Shown here: in pieces, positions 28,446-61,899 of the stretch
Layout of the letters: the number at the start of each line of letters is the position of its first letter
How positions within the stretch are numbered: position 1 is the first letter of the stretch
Assembly (NCBI RefSeq): GCF_002900975.1
Contig: NZ_PJON01000005.1
Coordinates: 124,001 to 188,000, forward strand
Reading direction: 5' to 3'
Length of the DNA: 64,000 bases
From: Tabrizicola aquatica
GTDB taxonomy: Bacteria > Pseudomonadota > Alphaproteobacteria > Rhodobacterales > Rhodobacteraceae
Translations under genes and position numbers: made by a program
The notes under the pieces: generated by a model
What the model was told of the DNA's origin: nothing
Seen by the model: only the letters and a program-made list of their open reading frames with translations
Database searches by the model: none

Positions 28446-29294
28446 ATGCCCGGCAAGCCCGACCGAGACCATGACCACGACCATGACGACGGGCCGGAAG
28501 GCCTTGCCGCGGATTTGCCGCACCTGGCGCGGCGCCGGGCATTGCTGACCGGGCTGGCCTTTGGCGGGGCCGCGCTGTCGCTATGGGTGGCGCAGGGCGG
28601 GGCGCAGACCATGACGGGGCGGGCGGCGGATGGCAGCATCTGCGTTGCCAACCCGGCCGAGACCGCTGGCCCCTTCCCGGCGGACGGCACCAACGTGCGT
28701 GAGGGCCAGGCCGTCAACATCCTGACCGAGGAAGGTGTCATCCGCGAAGATATCCGCACCAGCATCGGCGGGCTTTCCCCGGTGGCCGAGGGCGTGCCGG
28801 TCGCGCTGGAGATCACGCTGGTCGACCTGGGGCGGGCCTGCGCGCCTTTGGGCGGGATGGCGGTCTATGTCTGGCAATGCGACGCGGAAGGGGTCTATTC
28901 GATCTATGGTGCCGCCGACCGCAACTATCTGCGCGGCGTGGGGATCAGCGATGCGCAAGGCCGGGTCCGGTTCACCACGGTCTTTCCGGCCTGCTACCCG
29001 GGCCGCTGGCCGCACCTGCATTTCGAGGTATTCTCCAGCGCGGAAATGGCCGTTTCGGGCAAGGGGGCGCTTCTGACCAGCCAGTTCGCCCTGCCCGAGG
29101 CCGCGTGCCGGGCGGTCTATGACATCCAGCCGCTGTATCGGGCCAGCCGCGACACCATCGAAGGGGTCAGCCTGAAACGCGACGGCATCTTCCGCGATGC
29201 GTCAGAGCAGGCGCTTTCGGCGCAGATGCTGGCGATGGAGGGTGACCCGGCCTTTGGCTATCGTGCGACGGGACGGGTGGGGCTGGTCCTTTGA
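28446..29294 (+). CDS. Tat-exported intradiol ring-cleavage dioxygenase-like protein
   Basis: 282 residues. An unusual His/Asp-rich leader (DRDHDHDHDDGPEG) precedes a twin-arginine signal (RRRALLTGLAFGGAALSLW). The catalytic domain resembles protocatechuate 3,4-dioxygenase: ETAGPFPADG, VYVWQCDAEGVYS (Tyr ligand), then YPGRWPHLHFEV (Tyr and the His-x-His iron ligands). Substrate unknown; exported members of this family are poorly studied. The start was set at 28446, spaced from GGAGA; a TTG three bases earlier is possible. The gene's 3' end is part of a tandem duplication (see repeat). Confidence 0.82.
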   Translation: MPGKPDRDHDHDHDDGPEGLAADLPHLARRRALLTGLAFGGAALSLWVAQGGAQTMTGRAADGSICVANPAETAGPFPADGTNVREGQAVNILTEEGVIREDIRTSIGGLSPVAEGVPVALEITLVDLGRACAPLGGMAVYVWQCDAEGVYSIYGAADRNYLRGVGISDAQGRVRFTTVFPACYPGRWPHLHFEVFSSAEMAVSGKGALLTSQFALPEAACRAVYDIQPLYRASRDTIEGVSLKRDGIFRDASEQALSAQMLAMEGDPAFGYRATGRVGLVL

Positions 29295-29440
29295 CGCTGC
29301 GGGCTCGTCGATGACTTCGTCACTCCTCGCGCTTTGGCGTGCGATGGGACGGGTGGGGCTGGTGCCACCTCTTGCTCGTCGATGACTTCGTCACTCCTCG
29401 CCGGGGTGCCCGCCGACGAGAAGACGAAGTCGCACGAGGA
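29262..29440. repeat. Duplicated hairpin region (dispersed palindrome family, copy B)
   Basis: The last 33 bases of the dioxygenase gene and the following CTCGTCGATGACTTCGTCAC arm (29262-29330) are imperfectly repeated in tandem at 29338-29401. A partner arm (CGACGAGAAGACGAAGTCG, then CACGAGGAGG) follows at 29413-29441 with ATTGCGG after it. It therefore has two left arms and one right arm. It is related to the palindromes at 9653 and 45775. Confidence 0.75.
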
Positions 29441-54971: not shown

Positions 54972-55070
54972 GGCGGGCGGCTTGGGCGACCGTCCAGTGT
55001 TTTCGAAAACTCCGGCTTTTCCAGACGCCGCAATGGCGCTACATCCCGCAGGGAACAACGGGGGTGTGCC

Positions 55071-56303
55071 ATGGCCGAGGACGGATTGAACAGCTTCATG
55101 ACGGGACCGGATGAGGCGGGCCGGTTCGGCCTGTTCGGCGGGCGCTTCGTTTCCGAAACGCTGATGCCGCTGATCCTGGAGTTGGAAGAGCGATACAATC
55201 ACGCCAAGACCGACCCCAGCTTCTGGGCCGAGATGGATGATCTGTGGAAGCACTATGTCGGGCGGCCGTCTCCGCTGTATTTCGCGCCGCGGCTGACCGA
55301 GCATCTGGGCGGCGCCAAGGTCTATATGAAGCGCGACGAGTTGAACCACACCGGCGCGCACAAGATCAACAACGTGCTGGGCCAGATCATCCTGGCGCGG
55401 CGGATGGGCAAGACGCGGATCATCGCTGAAACCGGCGCGGGTCAGCACGGCGTGGCGACGGCGACGGTCTGCGCCAAGTTCGGGCTGCAATGCGTCGTCT
55501 ACATGGGCGCGCATGACGTCGAACGCCAGGCGCCGAACGTGTTCCGCATGAAGCTTCTGGGCGCGGAGGTGATTCCGGTCACCTCGGGTCGCGGCACGCT
55601 GAAAGATGCGATGAACGACGCGCTGCGGGATTGGGTCACGAACGTCCGCGACACGTTCTATTGCATCGGCACGGTGGCCGGGCCGCATCCCTATCCGGCG
55701 ATGGTACGTGATTTCCAGTCGATCATCGGCAAGGAAGTGCGCTGGCAGCTGGAAGAACAGGAAGGCGCGGGTCGCCTGCCCGACGTCTTGGTCGCGGCCA
55801 TTGGCGGCGGGTCGAACGCGATGGGGCTGTTCTACCCCTTCCTGGACGACAAGTCGGTGCGAATCGTCGGTGTCGAAGCCGGCGGCAAGGGCGTGGACGA
55901 CCGGATGGAGCATTGCGCCAGCCTGACCGGCGGGCGTCCGGGCGTGCTGCATGGCAACCGGACCTACCTGCTGCAGGACAATGACGGGCAGATCCTTGAG
56001 GGGTTCAGCATCAGCGCCGGCCTCGACTATCCGGGAATCGGGCCGGAACATGCCTGGCTGCATGACGTGGGCCGCGCCGAATATGTCAGCATCACCGATG
56101 CCGAGGCGCTGGAGGCGTTCCAGCTGTGCTGCCGGCTGGAGGGAATCATCCCCGCGCTGGAGCCGTCCCATGCCCTGGCCCAGGTGATGAAGCTGGCGCC
56201 GACCCTGCCCAAGGACCAGATCATCGTGATGAACATGTGCGGCCGCGGCGACAAGGACATCTTCACGGTGGCCAAGCACCTTGGCGTCCAGATGAAGGTC
56301 TAG
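55071..56303 (+). CDS. trpB: Tryptophan synthase beta subunit
   Basis: 410 residues. [16 protein letters not shown] contains the PLP lysine; [13 protein letters not shown] (catalytic Glu), [13 protein letters not shown] (PLP phosphate loop), [11 protein letters not shown] and MCGRGDKD are all present. It condenses indole with serine as the TrpA2B2 complex; trpA is not in this window. The ATG at 55071 gives [14 protein letters not shown], as common in Rhodobacterales. Confidence 0.97.
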
Positions 56304-56352
56304 GGCCGCTGGCCCTTTCACCCCATGGTTGCAGGCGAAAAGCCCGTAACCC

Positions 56353-56412
56353 GGCCATAAACGTAAGTTTAGGCCGACAGCACCCCGGTTTATGGACGCC
56401 GGCCTAAACCGG
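56353..56412 (+). promoter_or_regulatory. Two hairpins with an alternative pairing, upstream of the poly-Asp gene
   Basis: Hairpin 1 (56353-56375) pairs GGCC-TAAAC with GTTTA-GGCC across GTAA. Hairpin 2 (56385-56412) pairs CCGGTTTA with TAAACCGG. Alternatively GTTTAGGCCG (56367-56376) pairs with CGGCCTAAAC (56400-56409), and CCATAAAC (56355-56362) with GTTTATGG (56388-56395). This could be a switch, an operator pair or a trpB 3' structure. Confidence 0.45.
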
Positions 56413-56514
56413 GGGCAAATGGTCAGTACGAGCTTGGCGAGGTCAGGTCGGGTCGTGCCACAGGGTGTGGTGCGGATCCGGCCCCCGGGCCAGTAACTCG
56501 TAACGGAGATGACC

Positions 56515-56994
56515 ATGAAACTGAGGACCAAGCTTTTGATGTTCACGGCAGCCGCCGCGCTGTCGGTGAACATGGCCCATGCCGCGATCAACGGCTCGGC
56601 GCTGGCCGACGCCTATCTGGAAAAGGGCTATGACTTCGTCGAGGTCAAGGTTGGCCCGACCCAGACCAAGGTCGAGGCGATCAAGGGCGGCGTGAAGGTC
56701 GAGGTCGTCTATGACAACGAGACCCAGAAAGTCATCAAGCAAGAGCAGGAAGCCGCCGATGGCGACGACCTTGGTCGCACGGGTAAGGACGTCCGCACCG
56801 TCAAGAGCGACTTTGAAGACGGCGACGACGATGACGACAGCGATGACGACAACGACGACGATGATGATGGCGACGACGACAACAGCGGGCGTGGCAGCGG
56901 CGACAGCGACGGCGATGATGATGACGACGACGATGATGACGACGACGATGATGACGATGATGACGATGATGATGACGACAGCGGCAAATCCTGA
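56515..56994 (+). CDS. Secreted PepSY-like protein with poly-aspartate tail (first of two)
   Basis: 159 residues. Signal peptide KLRTKLLMFTAAAALSVNMAHA. Residues about 23-75 look like a PepSY fold (DAYLEKGYDFVEVKVGPT, then VKVEVVYDNETQKVIKQEQE). The C-terminal half is Asp-rich, ending in a run of 22 Asp and SGKS. The tract is made of mixed GAT and GAC codons. The start at 56515 fits CGGAG better than 56509. Likely binds Ca or other cations outside the cell membrane; this is inference. A terminator follows. Confidence 0.75.
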   Translation: MKLRTKLLMFTAAAALSVNMAHAAINGSALADAYLEKGYDFVEVKVGPTQTKVEAIKGGVKVEVVYDNETQKVIKQEQEAADGDDLGRTGKDVRTVKSDFEDGDDDDDSDDDNDDDDDGDDDNSGRGSGDSDGDDDDDDDDDDDDDDDDDDDDDDSGKS

Positions 56995-57015
56995 GGTCCT
57001 GGCCTGAGGTCTGGG

Positions 57016-57038
57016 GGCCCCGGTATTGCCGGGGCCTT
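57016..57038 (+). terminator. Hairpin between the two poly-Asp genes
   Basis: GGCCCCGG-tattg-CCGGGGCC, eight-base stem, then TTCGG. Short U-run, so termination may be partial. Confidence 0.6.
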
Positions 57039-57072
57039 CGGCATGTTCCATATTGCCCATAGGGGTATGACG

Positions 57073-57561
57073 ATGAAACGCCGAGAATTCCTGACGGTTT
57101 TTGCAGCGGCTGCGGCCTTGGGCGGGCCCGCCCTGGCCCAGGACTATGTTGCCGGCATCAAGCGCCAGTTGAAGTCGCAGGGCTTTCGCTCGATCGTCGA
57201 GGAGCGGACGCTTCTGGGCCGCGTGCGGATTGTCGCGACCAGCCGCGACGGGCGGCGCGAAATCATCCTGAACCCCCGGACCGGGGAAATCCTGCGCGAC
57301 CTTTGGCAGCCCGTTTCGGGCAAGAAGGGCGAGGCGAAGATCATCGATGATCGCAAGTCAGGTCGTGATCCGAAGGACGACGATGACGACGATGACGATG
57401 ACGATGACGACGACGATGATGATGATGACGATGACGACGATGACGACGACAACAGCGGTTCCGGCAATTCGGGGTCGGGCGGCAATGGGTCGGGCGGTGG
57501 CGGCGGTGGATCGGGCGGCGGCGATAGCGATGACGACGACGACGATGATGATGACGATTAA
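57073..57561 (+). CDS. Exported PepSY-like protein with poly-aspartate and Gly/Ser segments (second of two)
   Basis: 162 residues. The N-terminus MKRREFLTVFAAAAALGGPA is a Tat-like or Sec signal (RREFL). A PepSY-like segment follows (GIKRQLKSQGFRSIVEERT, then VRIVATSRDGRREIILNPRT and GEILRDLW). Then come 25 consecutive Asp, a Gly/Ser/Asn linker and ten final Asp. Start at 57073 fits AGGGG upstream; 57067 is too close. The arrangement repeats that of the previous gene with little identity in the folded part, so the two may be paralogs or converged. Confidence 0.75.
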   Translation: MKRREFLTVFAAAAALGGPALAQDYVAGIKRQLKSQGFRSIVEERTLLGRVRIVATSRDGRREIILNPRTGEILRDLWQPVSGKKGEAKIIDDRKSGRDPKDDDDDDDDDDDDDDDDDDDDDDDDDNSGSGNSGSGGNGSGGGGGGSGGGDSDDDDDDDDDD

Positions 57562-57589
57562 GCCGGCCGTCGGCGCATCGGGTCATTGA

Positions 57590-58114
57590 TTGAAACGCGC
57601 TGCCCCCTTTCTGGCGATCTTCGTCATTCAGGCGCTGTGCGCCTTCTTTTTCGTATCCGACATCCTGTCCTCGGTGCTGGGGCTGCGCACGTCTCCCATC
57701 AGCTGGGAAATGCGCGAGCTGATGGAGATCGGCGCCTCCCTCGGGCTGGTCCTGGGCGTGGTGGTCGGCGGGCTGATGCTGCGGCGGGCGTTGCGCGAAC
57801 GGAACCACGCGGAAGAGCGGCTGCGCCGCGCATCGGGCGCGTTCATGGACCTCTTGCAGGAGCGGTTCACCGAATGGGGCCTGACCGCATCAGAGCGGGA
57901 TGTCGCGCTGTTCGCCATCAAGGGCATGTCCACGGCCGAGATTGCCGCCCTGCGCTCGACCAGCGAGGGGACGGTCAAGGCGCAGACGAACGCGATCTAT
58001 CGCAAGGCGGGCGTCAGCGGGCGGCCGCAGTTGCTGAGCCTGTTCATCGATGACCTGATGCGGGACGACGGCACCGTGCGGGCGGCGGCGAACCACACCG
58101 GATCGGCGGCCTGA
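57590..58114 (+). CDS. Membrane-anchored LuxR-type HTH regulator
   Basis: 174 residues from a TTG. Two N-terminal helices (FLAIFVIQALCAFFFVSDIL and IGASLGLVLGVVVGGLMLRR) are followed by a coiled region and a C-terminal LuxR/GerE-type HTH (LTASERDVALFAIKGMSTAE, then IAALRSTSEGTVKAQTNAIY). A membrane regulator of this kind would sense an envelope signal and bind DNA from the membrane. It lies 28 bases after the second poly-Asp gene, probably co-transcribed. Confidence 0.8.
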   Translation: MKRAAPFLAIFVIQALCAFFFVSDILSSVLGLRTSPISWEMRELMEIGASLGLVLGVVVGGLMLRRALRERNHAEERLRRASGAFMDLLQERFTEWGLTASERDVALFAIKGMSTAEIAALRSTSEGTVKAQTNAIYRKAGVSGRPQLLSLFIDDLMRDDGTVRAAANHTGSAA

Positions 58115-58489
58115 TCAGTCACCGTCGGTGGCGTGTTCGCGCAGAATGTCCAGCGGCACGACGGCCAGCGTAGCCTGATGGGTGGCCGCCAGGCGAACCT
58201 TGGGCGCGGCACCTTCCTGGTGCGCCTGCAGGAAGCGCGCGGCGCAGAGGCACCACTGGTCCCCGGCTTTCAACCCCTGGAAGCCGTATTCCGGCCGGGG
58301 GGTGGACAGGTCGTTGCCAAGATATTTCGACAGCGCCAGGAATTCGTCCGTCATGGTGGCGCAGACCGTGTGCAGGCCCCGGTCCATCGGGCCGGTGTTG
58401 CAGCAGCCGTCACGGAAGAATCCGGTGACCGGCGCGGTAGAGCAGGGTTGCAGATCCTGGCCAAGGACGTTGAGGGATGGAAGTTTCAT
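58115..58489 (-). CDS. DUF2237 family protein
   Basis: 124 residues. MKLPSLNVLGQDLQPCS, TGFFRDGCCNTGPMDRGLHT, MTDEFLALSKYLGNDLSTP, LKAGDQWCLCAARFLQA and PKVRLAATH are the DUF2237 hallmarks, with conserved Cys pairs (GCC and CLC). The function is unknown. The ATG at 58489 gives the standard N-terminus. It is convergent with the LuxR-type gene with no gap. Confidence 0.9.
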   Translation of the reverse strand: MKLPSLNVLGQDLQPCSTAPVTGFFRDGCCNTGPMDRGLHTVCATMTDEFLALSKYLGNDLSTPRPEYGFQGLKAGDQWCLCAARFLQAHQEGAAPKVRLAATHQATLAVVPLDILREHATDGD

Positions 58490-58710
58490 TGCCTCAGCAT
58501 GGCAGGACACAGCCGGCCTGTCCAGAGCCGTGCAAGGGCCGGCTGGTTTCGGCCAAATGAAATCAAGGGGTTGCGCGGGGGCCTTCGCGGGGGGCTATTG
58601 TTCGGGTGGGTATCATCGGAATGGGCGAATGCGCCTTGGCGCAAGGCTTTCTGCTGCAAAGGCCGCTGTGTCGCGGGCGCGGGGCGGTTTTCGGAAGGAG
58701 CGGCATGCGC

Positions 58711-58810
58711 CGCAAGGCTTTTGTCTCGTCGTCGGGCTGCGCCTCCTCCTCGGCGTTGGGGGCGCTTCGCCCCCCAAACCCCCAGAGGATATTTGGGCCA
58801 ATGTGAAACG
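58711..58810 (+). repeat. GGATATTT element, long form, copy 5
   Basis: Nearly identical to 41463-41560: TTTTGTCTCGTCGTCGGGCT, CGCCTCCTCCTCGGCG, hairpin GGGGGCGcttCGCCCCC, AACCCCCAGAGGATATTTGG, and GTGAAACG. Confidence 0.78.
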
Positions 58811-58823
58811 CAGTTTGCCGCAC

Positions 58824-58852
58824 TGGACCGTGCGCCGGCCTTTGTCTATAAG
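58824..58852 (+). promoter_or_regulatory. Candidate ileS promoter
   Basis: TGGACC (58824-58829), 17 bases, TATAAG (58847-58852). The leader to the ileS ATG would be about 125 bases. Confidence 0.45.
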
Positions 58853-58983
58853 CCCGTCATGCAGACAGGCTGGGTCATTCCTTCGCGAATTACCGGCCCG
58901 GCGGGCTGAGGCCCGGCCGGGTTCGTCGTCTTGCCGCTGGTCCTGTCCGGACCGTTCTGCCCCTGACCTGAGGTCCTGATCCC

Positions 58984-61899
58984 ATGTGCGCCGATACCGC
59001 CGCTGTTGACTATCGCGATACCGTTTTCCTGCCCGAGACCGCCTTCCCGATGCGGGCGGGCCTGCCGCAACGCGAGCCGGACTGGCTGGCGCGGTGGGAG
59101 CGGATCGGGGTCTATGACCGGTTGCGGTCCACGGCTGCCGGCCGGGCGCCGTTCGTGCTGCATGATGGCCCTCCCTATGCCAACGGGCACCTCCATATCG
59201 GGCATGCGCTGAACAAGGTCTTGAAGGACATGGTGGTGCGGTCGCAGCAGATGATGGGCAAGGATGCCCGTTATGTGCCGGGCTGGGACTGCCACGGCTT
59301 GCCGATCGAGTGGAAGATCGAGGAGCAGTACCGCGCCAAGGGGCTGAACAAGGACGACGTGGACATCGTCGACTTCCGCCAGGAATGCCGCCGCTTTGCC
59401 GAGGGCTGGATCGGGGTGCAGCGCGAGGAGTTCAAGCGGCTTGGCGTCACAGGGAAGTGGGACAAACCCTACCTCACGATGGACTATCACGCCGAAGCGG
59501 TGATCGCGGACGAGTTCATGAAGTTCGTCATGAACGGGTCGCTCTATCAGGGGTCGAAGCCGGTGATGTGGTCGCCGGTAGAGAAGACTGCGCTGGCCGA
59601 GGCTGAGGTGGAGTATCACGACCATACCAGCCATCAGGTCTGGGTGCGGTTCCGGGTGATTGCTAGCGATGCGCTGTTCACCAAGACGCCGACCGACGTG
59701 GTGATCTGGACGACGACGCCCTGGACGATTCCGCAGAACCGGGCGGTCGCCTTCGGGCCGGAGATTGCCTACGGTCTGTACGAAATCGTCGGACGGCCAG
59801 AGGACAGTTCGGCCACCATCGGGCACCGTGTTGTTCTGGCAGACAAGTTGGCCGAGGCGGTTCTGGCGCAGGCCAAGCTGGTGGGGCCAGAGATGGTGCG
59901 GCGGCTGGCAGACGTGTCTGCCGCTGACCTGAAGGGCATGGTCCTGGCACACCCCTTCCGTGGCGTTGAAGGCGGCAACGGCGAGTGGGATTATGATGTC
60001 CCCATGCTGCCGGGCGAGCATGTCACCGACGATGCGGGGACGGGGTTCGTGCATACGGCCCCCAGCCACGGCGATGACGACTATCAGCTGGGCGTGAAGT
60101 TCGGGCTGCCGATGACCTACAACGTCGAGGCGGACGGGTCGTATCGCACCGACCTGCCCTTGTTCGGCGGGCAGCACATCATCACTTCCGATGGCAAGGA
60201 AGGGCCGGCGAACGTGTCGGTCATCAAGCAGCTGGCCTATACCGGCGCACTGTTTGCCAAGGCGAAGCTGAAGCATTCCTACCCGCACTCCTGGCGGTCG
60301 AAGGCCCCGGTCATCTATCGCAACACGCCGCAATGGTTCGTGGCGATCGACCGCAAGCTGGACGACGGGCTGTCGACCTATGGCGAGACGATCCGGGCGC
60401 GGGCGCTGACCTCGATCAATCAACTGGTGGACTGGACCCCTTCGACGGGGCGGAACCGGCTGTTTTCGATGATCGAGGCGCGCCCCGACTGGGTGCTGTC
60501 CCGCCAGCGGGCCTGGGGGGTTCCGCTGACGGCCTTCGTCAAGAAGGGGGCGCGCCCGGATGCGGCGGACTTCCTTTTGCGCAACGCAGAGGTGAACGCG
60601 CGGATCAAGGCGGCCTTCGAGGCTGAGGGCGCGGATGTTTGGTATGTGCAAGGATTCAAGGAGAAGATGCTCGATGGCATCGTGAATCCGTCGGATTATG
60701 AACAGGTCTTCGACGTGCTGGACGTCTGGTTCGACTCTGGTTCGACCCACGCCTTCGTCCTGCGCGACCGCGAGGATGGCGCGGCGGATGGGATTGCGGA
60801 CCTGTATCTGGAAGGCACCGACCAGCATCGCGGGTGGTTCCATTCCAGCATGCTGCAGTCCTGCGGGACCAAGGGGCGGGCGCCCTATCGGGGCGTGTTG
60901 ACCCATGGCTTCACGCTGGACGAGAAGGGCATGAAGATGTCCAAATCGCTGGGCAACACCGTGGCCCCGGAAGAGGTCATCAAGGAATACGGCGCGGATA
61001 TCCTGCGGCTTTGGGTGGCGCAGTCGGACTACACCGTGGACCTGCGCATCGGGAAGGAAATCCTGAAAGGCGTGGCCGACAGCTATCGCCGCCTGCGCAA
61101 TACGATGCGCTATATGCTGGGCGCGCTGAAGGGCTTTACCGAGGCGGAGCGGGTGGACTTTGCCGACATGCCGGAAGGCGAGCGGTTCATCCTGCACCGG
61201 CTGGCGGAACTCGATGCCGAAGTGCGCGAGGGCTATGCCAAGTACGACTTCCAGGGCGTGTTCCAGAAGCTGTTCACCTTCTGCACCACCGACCTTTCGG
61301 CGGTCTATTTCGACATCCGCAAGGACAGCCTGTACTGCGACCCGGCGGACAGCATCACGCGGCGGTCCTGCCGGACGGTGATGGATATCCTGTTCCACCG
61401 CCTGACCACCTGGCTGGCCCCGGTGCTGGTCTTCACGATGGAGGAGGTCTGGCTGGAGCGGTTCCCGGGCGAGGAAAGCTCGGTCCATCTGGTCGATTTC
61501 CCCGAAACGCCGAAGGCCTGGCTTGATCAGGCGCTGGCGGCGAAATGGGACGCCCTGCGCGATGCGCGGCGGGTGGTGACCGGGGCGCTGGAGGTGCAGC
61601 GGACGGCGAAGGTGATCGGCTCCAGCCTGGAAGCCGCGCCGGAGGTGTTTGTCAGCCCGACCCTGGCGGCGGTGTTGGGCAGCGTCGATTTCGCCGAGCT
61701 TTGCATCACGTCGGACCTTGCCCTGCGGCAGGGCGAGGCCCCTGAGGAGGCGTTCCGGTTGGCGGATGTGCCGGAGGTGGCGGTGCTGTTCCATCCGGCC
61801 AAGGGCCAGAAATGCGAACGCTGCTGGAAGGTCCTGCCGGATGTCGGGACGCACAAGCATCCCGGCACCTGCGCGCGCTGCAACGACGCGTTGGGCTAG
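58984..61899 (+). CDS. ileS: Isoleucyl-tRNA synthetase
   Basis: 971 residues. N-terminal HIGH motif in GPPYANGHLHIGHALNK, editing (CP1) domain with WTTTPWTIPQNRAVAFG, KMSKS in GMKMSKSLGNTVAPEEV, and a C-terminal zinc-type motif (CERCWKVLP...CARC). It charges tRNA-Ile. The presence of the C-terminal Cys cluster and class I architecture matches bacterial type IleS (mupirocin-sensitive class); it is not the eukaryote-like form. ATG 58984 gives MCADTAAVDYRDTVFLPE. Confidence 0.97.
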   Translation: MCADTAAVDYRDTVFLPETAFPMRAGLPQREPDWLARWERIGVYDRLRSTAAGRAPFVLHDGPPYANGHLHIGHALNKVLKDMVVRSQQMMGKDARYVPGWDCHGLPIEWKIEEQYRAKGLNKDDVDIVDFRQECRRFAEGWIGVQREEFKRLGVTGKWDKPYLTMDYHAEAVIADEFMKFVMNGSLYQGSKPVMWSPVEKTALAEAEVEYHDHTSHQVWVRFRVIASDALFTKTPTDVVIWTTTPWTIPQNRAVAFGPEIAYGLYEIVGRPEDSSATIGHRVVLADKLAEAVLAQAKLVGPEMVRRLADVSAADLKGMVLAHPFRGVEGGNGEWDYDVPMLPGEHVTDDAGTGFVHTAPSHGDDDYQLGVKFGLPMTYNVEADGSYRTDLPLFGGQHIITSDGKEGPANVSVIKQLAYTGALFAKAKLKHSYPHSWRSKAPVIYRNTPQWFVAIDRKLDDGLSTYGETIRARALTSINQLVDWTPSTGRNRLFSMIEARPDWVLSRQRAWGVPLTAFVKKGARPDAADFLLRNAEVNARIKAAFEAEGADVWYVQGFKEKMLDGIVNPSDYEQVFDVLDVWFDSGSTHAFVLRDREDGAADGIADLYLEGTDQHRGWFHSSMLQSCGTKGRAPYRGVLTHGFTLDEKGMKMSKSLGNTVAPEEVIKEYGADILRLWVAQSDYTVDLRIGKEILKGVADSYRRLRNTMRYMLGALKGFTEAERVDFADMPEGERFILHRLAELDAEVREGYAKYDFQGVFQKLFTFCTTDLSAVYFDIRKDSLYCDPADSITRRSCRTVMDILFHRLTTWLAPVLVFTMEEVWLERFPGEESSVHLVDFPETPKAWLDQALAAKWDALRDARRVVTGALEVQRTAKVIGSSLEAAPEVFVSPTLAAVLGSVDFAELCITSDLALRQGEAPEEAFRLADVPEVAVLFHPAKGQKCERCWKVLPDVGTHKHPGTCARCNDALG

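Follow-up and report, generated by a model that had tools for sequence, protein, structure and literature searches.

A conserved gene set of two exported acidic PepSY-like proteins and a membrane LuxR-type regulator in Rhodobacteraceae, with a candidate operator of its own

Our analyses of a 64-kb stretch of the 3.87-Mb Tabrizicola aquatica genome (C8:124001-188000; hereafter, the window) revealed three plus-strand genes, A, B, and L, lying in that order between trpB and a convergent DUF2237 gene, as judged from open reading frames and Pfam matches. The features of the locus, in window coordinates, are the following.

Ending at 56303: trpB, the 5′ flank of A (Pfam domain; the gene name is our own reading).
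56358 to 56371, unstranded: candidate operator site 1, TAAACGTAAGTTTA (TAAAC-N4-GTTTA), the only exact match in the window and in the 3.87-Mb genome.
56388 to 56409, unstranded: candidate operator site 2, GTTTA-N12-TAAAC, unique in the window, with its right half at +47 from site 1.
56515 to 56994, plus strand: gene A, an exported PepSY-like protein of 159 residues with a Sec-type signal peptide and an acidic tail.
56914 to 56979, plus strand: the Asp22 run of A, 12 GAT and 10 GAC codons.
57011 to 57041, plus strand: putative hairpin between A and B, CTGGGGGCCCCGGT-ATT-GCCGGGGCCTTCGG, terminator-like, with no T run.
57026 to 57054, plus strand: probable B-L promoter, with a −35 TTGCCG (57026-57031) inside the hairpin, a 17-nt spacer, and a −10 CATATT (57049-57054).
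57073 to 57561, plus strand: gene B, an exported PepSY-like protein of 162 residues with an RR-type (Tat-like) signal peptide and an acidic tail.
57376 to 57450, plus strand: the Asp25 run of B (D25).
57529 to 57558, plus strand: the Asp10 run at the C terminus of B (D10), separated from D25 by a Gly/Ser linker.
57590 to 58114, plus strand: gene L, a predicted membrane-anchored one-component regulator with two transmembrane helices, a long helix, and a GerE/LuxR helix-turn-helix (HTH).
57713 to 57727, plus strand: the RExxE codons of L (R42-E43-L44-M45-E46), at the predicted periplasmic end of its second transmembrane helix.
58115 to 58510, minus strand: the DUF2237 gene, followed by ileS (Pfam domains; gene names are our own reading).

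The reading frames and aspartate runs bear out the original prediction for this locus, namely that two adjacent genes for exported proteins, with runs of 22 Asp in the first and 25 plus 10 in the second, are followed by a membrane LuxR-type regulator starting 28 bases farther on: the stop codon of B ends at 57561, and the TTG start of L lies at 57590. Two small corrections apply. For B, 57073 is the start with the better support, AGGGG lying immediately upstream, and A carries further, shorter Asp clusters, its acidic region consisting of D5, D5, and D22. A GGAG lies immediately 5′ of the A start. The A and B runs are the sole runs of at least five Asp in all six frames of the window. On the far side of the cluster, the DUF2237 gene stops at 58115, the base after the L stop codon (58114), so these convergent genes abut with zero gap. 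No Rfam family reached its gathering score over positions 55000 to 59000. Elsewhere in the window, a repeat finder reported a 71-base tandem duplication of 1.9 copies at 29262-29401.

The hydrophobic N termini of A and B are read as signal peptides, and that of B has RR among its first residues. An RR is found in the signal peptide of 64 of 83 B proteins, including 27/27 from the same genus, but of only 2 of 65 A proteins; the export route of B is a prediction from sequence. The claim of a PepSY-like segment in both proteins held. The window copies of A and B score 14.5 and 13.5 bits against PF13670 (PepSY_2), below the curated cut-off of 24.3 bits, whereas orthologues do match this family, at E ≤ 0.01 in 17 of 41 A alignment rows (best, 8.5e-7) and 11 of 56 B rows (best, 2.3e-5), with one A orthologue (L105) exceeding the cut-off at 29.3 bits. 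We therefore file A and B as PepSY-like. The predicted B core consists of one helix and four strands, with mean pLDDT values per ten residues of 86 to 97 over residues 21 to 80; from residue 91 onward, the ten-residue means are 60 or lower. The higher rows of a structure comparison held PepSY and BLIP-like proteins mixed with unrelated folds, and a sequence search of solved structures with A and B gave no PepSY entry among its matches. Short solved-structure matches of A, to ribosomal protein S3 and others, were judged to be due to chance.

The assignment of L as a membrane-anchored protein with a LuxR-type HTH was upheld by a GerE (PF00196) match of 29.7 bits, compared with a cut-off of 23.5, and by two hydrophobic segments, which are predicted membrane helices. 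In the predicted structure, a helix (residues 5-30) and a short loop precede one continuous helix (39-95) and the LuxR HTH (100-169), the last being strongly conserved between genera in our alignment. Pfam searches gave no match up to E=1 for an autoinducer-binding domain, which a quorum-sensing LuxR protein would carry, in the N terminus of L, and no match for a kinase or receiver domain in L. Among 47 aligned L rows (two being paralogues that have gaps in this region), E46 is present in 47/47, E43 in 45/47, and a basic residue at position 42 in 47/47. The wider pattern PxxW..xExxE recurs at 81 of 83 loci, in 80 with a basic residue ahead, its location following from predicted topology. The first Glu of ExxE is missing in the L of one locus (L151) and in the paralogue L2, described below. 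The ExxE motif is short and lies at the membrane edge, and its glutamates could be structural.

Among named loci, those closest by L come mostly from Tabrizicola and Rhodobacter-like isolates and metagenome-assembled genomes. In the genus sample, consisting of our own genome and 31 others, 28 genomes encode a full L orthologue, one gives a split match, and three have only a paralogue. One of the 28 loci (L015) is cut by a contig end; all 27 that could be scored have B and 26 have A, which is absent from L007, where trpB adjoins B directly, and strongly diverged in L021. The family sample comprised 394 Rhodobacteraceae genomes, one per genus and two for our own genus. In this set, L was found in 241 genomes at E ≤ 1e-10 and B in 187 at E ≤ 0.001. 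L accompanies B in 186 of these 187 genomes at E ≤ 1e-10, in 171 at E ≤ 1e-50, and in 160 at E ≤ 1e-60, and 160 of the 165 genomes with L at E ≤ 1e-60 have B. For the best 79 of more than 150 L places, B lies upstream, on the same strand and within 1.5 kb, in 78; the position of B at the remaining place (G402) was not among the matches listed. The A profile matched 170 of the 394 genomes, 167 of which have L, but this is an upper bound on which we do not rely for co-occurrence, since some of the matches are B (for example, in G086). Thus, the exported PepSY-type genes and the LuxR-type gene belong together, as had been proposed, and the recurrence of the cluster across Rhodobacteraceae with a conserved neighborhood rules out a local low-complexity artefact. 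In a class-wide sample of 327 genomes, B was found in five, three of family f1 and two of one other family, f117. One f1 match (G264) is marginal, with no L beside B in the sequence at hand. In the two f117 loci (L169 and L170), a gene for a PepSY protein whose tail is rich in Asp and His precedes one for a membrane relative of L (E values of 1.1e-35 and 9e-34), and the TAAAC site is absent from both.

Several loci show other arrangements. At L060, L087, and L110, the place of A is taken by another protein that looks exported and has a low-complexity tail; our profiles found no PepSY core in it. L-like genes stand in tandem with the cluster at L159 (2945-6050, where B′-L′ lies ahead of A-B-L) and L160 (2760-5441), a repeated PepSY-LuxR pairing. 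Extra B-like PepSY cores lie about 2 kb from the cluster at L056 (262-519), L059 (3864-4127), L080 (453-755), and L107 (261-530).

We next consider the acidic tails, of which 64 from A (65 A loci, the tail of L082 being omitted at fewer than 15 residues) and 83 from B (83 distinct loci) were measured. Net charge is negative in 64/64 A tails and in 82/83 B tails, the exception being L091, in which the B frame runs on into L. The weakest acidity is −0.06 net charge per residue for A (L104) and −0.04 for B (L056). On the genus side (the 27 same-genus loci plus L036), runs of at least 10 Asp occur in 20/27 A tails and 22/28 B tails, and all of the tails are acidic. Outside it, such runs occur in 5/37 A and 6/55 B tails, and DGDGD, DSDD, DDHGG, or Gly/Ser-rich patterns stand in for them. 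Pure poly-Asp is therefore an elaboration found mainly on the genus side, while the negatively charged tail is the conserved feature. The original prediction had expected tract lengths to vary between strains and had counted the absence of tracts from close relatives as a sign of a local low-complexity artefact. Lengths do vary widely between species, from no D4 run up to D54; long runs are not universal among the relatives, but every genus-side tail is acidic. At L091 (2500-3471), from a metagenome-assembled genome, B and L share one open frame. A B-L gene fusion was rejected there in favor of a probable frame error or decay, as the start of L looks disrupted.

Upstream of the cluster, the exact palindrome TAAACnnnnGTTTA is present at 73 of 83 distinct loci across genera and at 26/27 within the genus. 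It occurs once in the host genome, at window position 56358. A reversed control pattern also occurs once, elsewhere, and hence it is position rather than count that gives site 1 its weight. Allowing one mismatch yields 6 sites in this genome versus 15 for the control, so further targets are not evident. The sequences upstream of A in 26 genus members can hardly be aligned outside CATAAACnnnnGTTTA and a second segment some 47 bp farther along. Of the 73 loci having site 1, 62 carry an extra TAAAC at +45 to +48, the left half of site 2 being less conserved than the right, and AAT follows at +58 to +61 in 57 of the 72 loci with sufficient left flank. Site 1 is missing from 10/83 loci, seven with at least 488 upstream bases and three (L063, L099, and L101) with fewer than 480 available. 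Loci in which A was not detected can keep the site, then farther upstream of B (L060, L087, L088, L096, and L109).

Between A and B, a putative hairpin with a stem of at least eight pairs is found at 80 of 83 loci, 30/30 on the genus side (a group that here includes L030 and L031, from other genera) and 50/53 elsewhere (raw counts); its sequence varies by locus, and the pairing is kept. A promoter-like TTG inside the hairpin with xAxxxT at a distance of 16 to 18 nt was found at 27/30 genus-side loci and 18/53 others (raw counts), the genus-side form being TTGCCG inside the hairpin with CATAGT-like hexamers 17 nt on. These features suggest that a terminator-like hairpin lacking a T run probably marks the end of A and that B and L have a promoter of their own. 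The inverted repeat was also considered as the DNA site of L. It was rejected because its stem sequence changes between genera, whereas the HTH of L hardly does.

Our genome also contains a paralogous locus.

L001 1405-2820 (C6 of our own genome, near 415562-417116): PepSY_2 gene, cytochrome b561 gene, and L2.

Its PepSY_2 protein scores 33 bits, and L2 is 42% identical to L. Ahead of the PepSY gene lies a palindrome, GCTTA-N12-TAAGC, which is exact in seven of nine genus loci fetched, variant in an eighth, and not found in the ninth (L148). In the five loci where its position was determined, it precedes the PepSY start by 131 to 165 bp, and it occurs once in our own genome (reversed control, 2). 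Like the A-B-L cluster, this locus (L001 and L142) thus combines a PepSY gene, a membrane LuxR protein, and a palindrome of its own found once in the genome; unlike the cluster, it has no acidic tail, includes cytochrome b561, and uses the half-site GCTTA rather than GTTTA, and L2 differs from L in missing the first Glu of ExxE at the aligned position. The paralogous regulators are accompanied by sister palindromes that share a layout and occur once each, and the palindromes are likely the regulators' own sites. These sister palindromes are the best evidence here for that assignment, and what is new is the pair of them, one upstream of the cluster and one at the paralogue, from which we infer a dedicated self-regulating circuit. 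In another genome (L152, in G036), an L paralogue lies near genes that by eye resemble cytochrome b/c1 genes, with GCTTA-N12-TAAGC about 0.9 kb upstream of L.

The set is thus conserved in many Rhodobacteraceae, and its use is most likely the sensing and buffering of positively charged ions at the cell surface. Known PepSY-kinase systems provide precedents. According to the parts of PMC12714742 covered here, PepSY genes are neighbors of two-component genes over 60 times more often than expected, and DbfQ, a small PepSY protein of the periplasm, makes direct contact with the kinase DbfS and controls it. In the covered parts of PMC12666569, BqsS is described as binding Fe2+ at a periplasmic RExxE whose second Glu is essential and whose first has an auxiliary role; Ca2+ did not act directly on BqsS, and the authors propose that it may be sensed by a protein encoded in the bqsPQRS operon. 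Together with the RExxE of L, these precedents lead us to read L as a one-component cation sensor and A and B as its accessory proteins and output. L would be an inner-membrane regulator in which the RExxE periplasmic loop is joined by one continuous helix to the cytoplasmic LuxR DNA-binding domain. It would bind the TAAAC/GTTTA operator upstream of A and thereby control, whichever the sign of regulation, its own locus, and a second promoter in the A-B gap would also drive B and L. The folded PepSY cores of A and B may make contact with the L loop or compete with it, and their disordered acidic tails may bind metals or other cations, most likely iron or calcium, and so set the input of L. Production of acidic proteins and sensing of cations would then close a feedback loop. 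Taken as a whole, a dedicated, self-regulating envelope circuit in which cation-binding tails set what L senses is a tentative reading, to which we give slightly less than an even chance. It draws on the co-conservation of B and L, the palindrome upstream of A and its sister at the paralogue, the conserved RExxE, and the correlated charge of the A and B tails detailed below. Weighing against it are the barely acidic tails of some loci, the missing or replaced A of others, the exact site being absent from some loci and from some genomes with a strong L, and the loss of the first Glu of ExxE in L2 and in the L of L151. In the known systems, the missing direct effect of Ca2+ on BqsS, the unchanged V. 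cholerae reporter under iron, and the prediction of sensor binding for just one of the two P. aeruginosa PepSY proteins also count against it. The tails may instead act on cationic peptides or simply keep the proteins soluble.

If this is so, L may be the first one-component counterpart of PepSY-kinase metal sensing, in which a periplasmic RExxE reads a cation directly and one private operator governs two exported polyanions acting as buffers of that cation, a possibility we rate as rather doubtful. PepSY-LuxR pairs with sister operators, such as that at the cytochrome b561 locus, would then form a Rhodobacteraceae family of private metal circuits. The whole system, from input and regulator to DNA site and output, takes up about 1.8 kb and would fit one reporter construct.

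Other explanations were weighed. An envelope-damage or cationic-peptide circuit, in which PepSY proteins, as in DbfQRS, report on the integrity of the outer membrane and the tails serve chiefly to capture cationic peptides or polyamines instead of metals, is unlikely, though the most probable of the alternatives: the covered parts of PMC12714742 describe DbfQRS as responding to LPS defects, link dbfS to polymyxin B resistance, and report that iron left a V. cholerae DbfQRS reporter unchanged, and tails with a fixed sign of charge but no fixed motif would suit a nonspecific polyanion. The conserved RExxE of L and the presence of His in 44/65 A tails and 31/83 B tails point rather to metals, and the identified flanks, trpB, DUF2237, and ileS, are not envelope genes.

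Somewhat less probable is that B and L are a real sensing pair and the tails are neutral filler, with the poly-Asp of the genus arising as an expandable tract drifted. The tails do vary freely in sequence, length, and type (Asp runs, DGDGD, DSDD, DAED, and GSG), and in certain loci, such as L104, tails can be mostly Gly/Ser. Yet net charge is negative in 146/147 tails, the exception being a disrupted frame, and the charges of A and B tails covary, with a Spearman coefficient of 0.80 (64 pairs). When independent contrasts were computed on a tree built from L and the two cores, r was 0.71 (63 contrasts, p = 3.5e-11), or 0.63 once the three largest products were removed, and the contrasts had a rank correlation of 0.41 (p = 8e-4); without L091, the Spearman, contrast, and rank values were 0.81, 0.71, and 0.43, respectively. 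GC content was rejected as the source, given that its contrasts correlated at −0.14 to 0.06 and that r was unchanged at constant GC. Gene conversion between the tails was rejected as a general cause, since the longest shared stretch was 25.7 within versus 24.2 between genomes (22 genomes, p = 0.53), although single genomes could still show copying (L075, 44 versus 24.3). The covariation could also stem from shared mutational habits. The expectation that the GAT/GAC tracts would be prone to expansion and contraction agrees with their differing lengths between species, but the codons are mixed: in 71 long runs, the median GAT share is 47%, compared with 27% in the rpsA, trpF, trpB, and ileS genes of the window, and a median of 53% of neighboring codons differ. 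Hence, these are not pure slippage tracts. The tails offer a natural experiment on acidic low-complexity sequence, in which charge is kept and co-evolves and sequence is not kept.

It is improbable that the operator belongs to another regulator, with L controlling distant genes and A and B being mere neighbors under a common stress regulator. Across the 394 genomes, the exact site was found in 144 of 168 with a strong L (E exponent of −60 or better), 29 of 73 with a weak L, and 54 of 153 without L. The 24 strong-L genomes lacking the exact site, as well as the f117 L relatives that also lack it, are consistent with this explanation, which gains from binding of L to the operator being itself a prediction. 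Against it, presence of the site tracks L (strong-L versus no-L genomes, odds ratio 11, p = 3e-21), and the sister palindrome of L2 shares the N12 layout of site 2, each occurring once in its own genome or window. Finally, extracellular matrix or mineral-binding acidic proteins with a local regulator are very improbable: poly-Asp binds calcium minerals, and polyaspartic acid serves in studies as a model for acidic macromolecules found in biomineralised tissues (PMC6463188, in the parts covered), but the PepSY cores and their co-conservation with L point to signaling, and the identified flanking genes include no matrix or mineral gene.

The reading of A, B, and L as a self-regulating cation circuit can finally be set against known systems. 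Matches listed from one limited literature collection included no publication on such a locus, none joining PepSY, LuxR, and aspartate, and none combining a PepSY domain, cytochrome b561, and calcium; in the parts covered, PepSY and Rhodobacteraceae were mentioned together only in protease work. PepSY proteins are widespread, and recent work on DbfQ links them to kinases, whereas here they accompany a membrane regulator consisting of one protein, whose predicted operator is private. UipA, which binds U/Fe (cited in PMC12714742), and LanPepSY, a periplasmic protein that binds lanthanides (PMC12482762), are PepSY proteins like A and B. LanPepSY has two PepSY domains as opposed to the one core with a disordered acidic tail of A and B. 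As in DbfQRS of V. cholerae, where control by DbfQ is direct (PMC12714742), a small exported PepSY protein is encoded beside a membrane regulator; DbfQRS differs in being a two-component system with one PepSY protein and sensitivity to membrane integrity, and the covered parts of that paper do not mention an acidic tail. The arrangement shared with both DbfQRS and bqsPQRS, exported PepSY genes directly upstream of a membrane regulator, is found in the window and at 78 of the best 79 L places. The histidine kinase and response regulator of those systems are absent beside A and B, whose neighbors are trpB, L, DUF2237, and ileS. The cluster also resembles bqsPQRS, or BqsRS (CarRS), of Pseudomonas aeruginosa (PA2656-PA2659), where two PepSY genes adjoin bqsRS, PA2658 being a predicted sensor binder and PA2659 not (PMC12714742, in the parts covered), and where the membrane sensor likewise carries a periplasmic ExxE preceded by a basic residue. 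The BqsRS sensor is a histidine kinase that works with a distinct response regulator, while L unites membrane helices and a LuxR domain in one protein, and poly-Asp tails are not mentioned for bqsPQRS in the covered parts of the cited papers. What L shares with the ExxE iron sensors, as judged from its sequence, is a basic-preceded ExxE on the predicted periplasmic side, present in 45 of 47 L rows.
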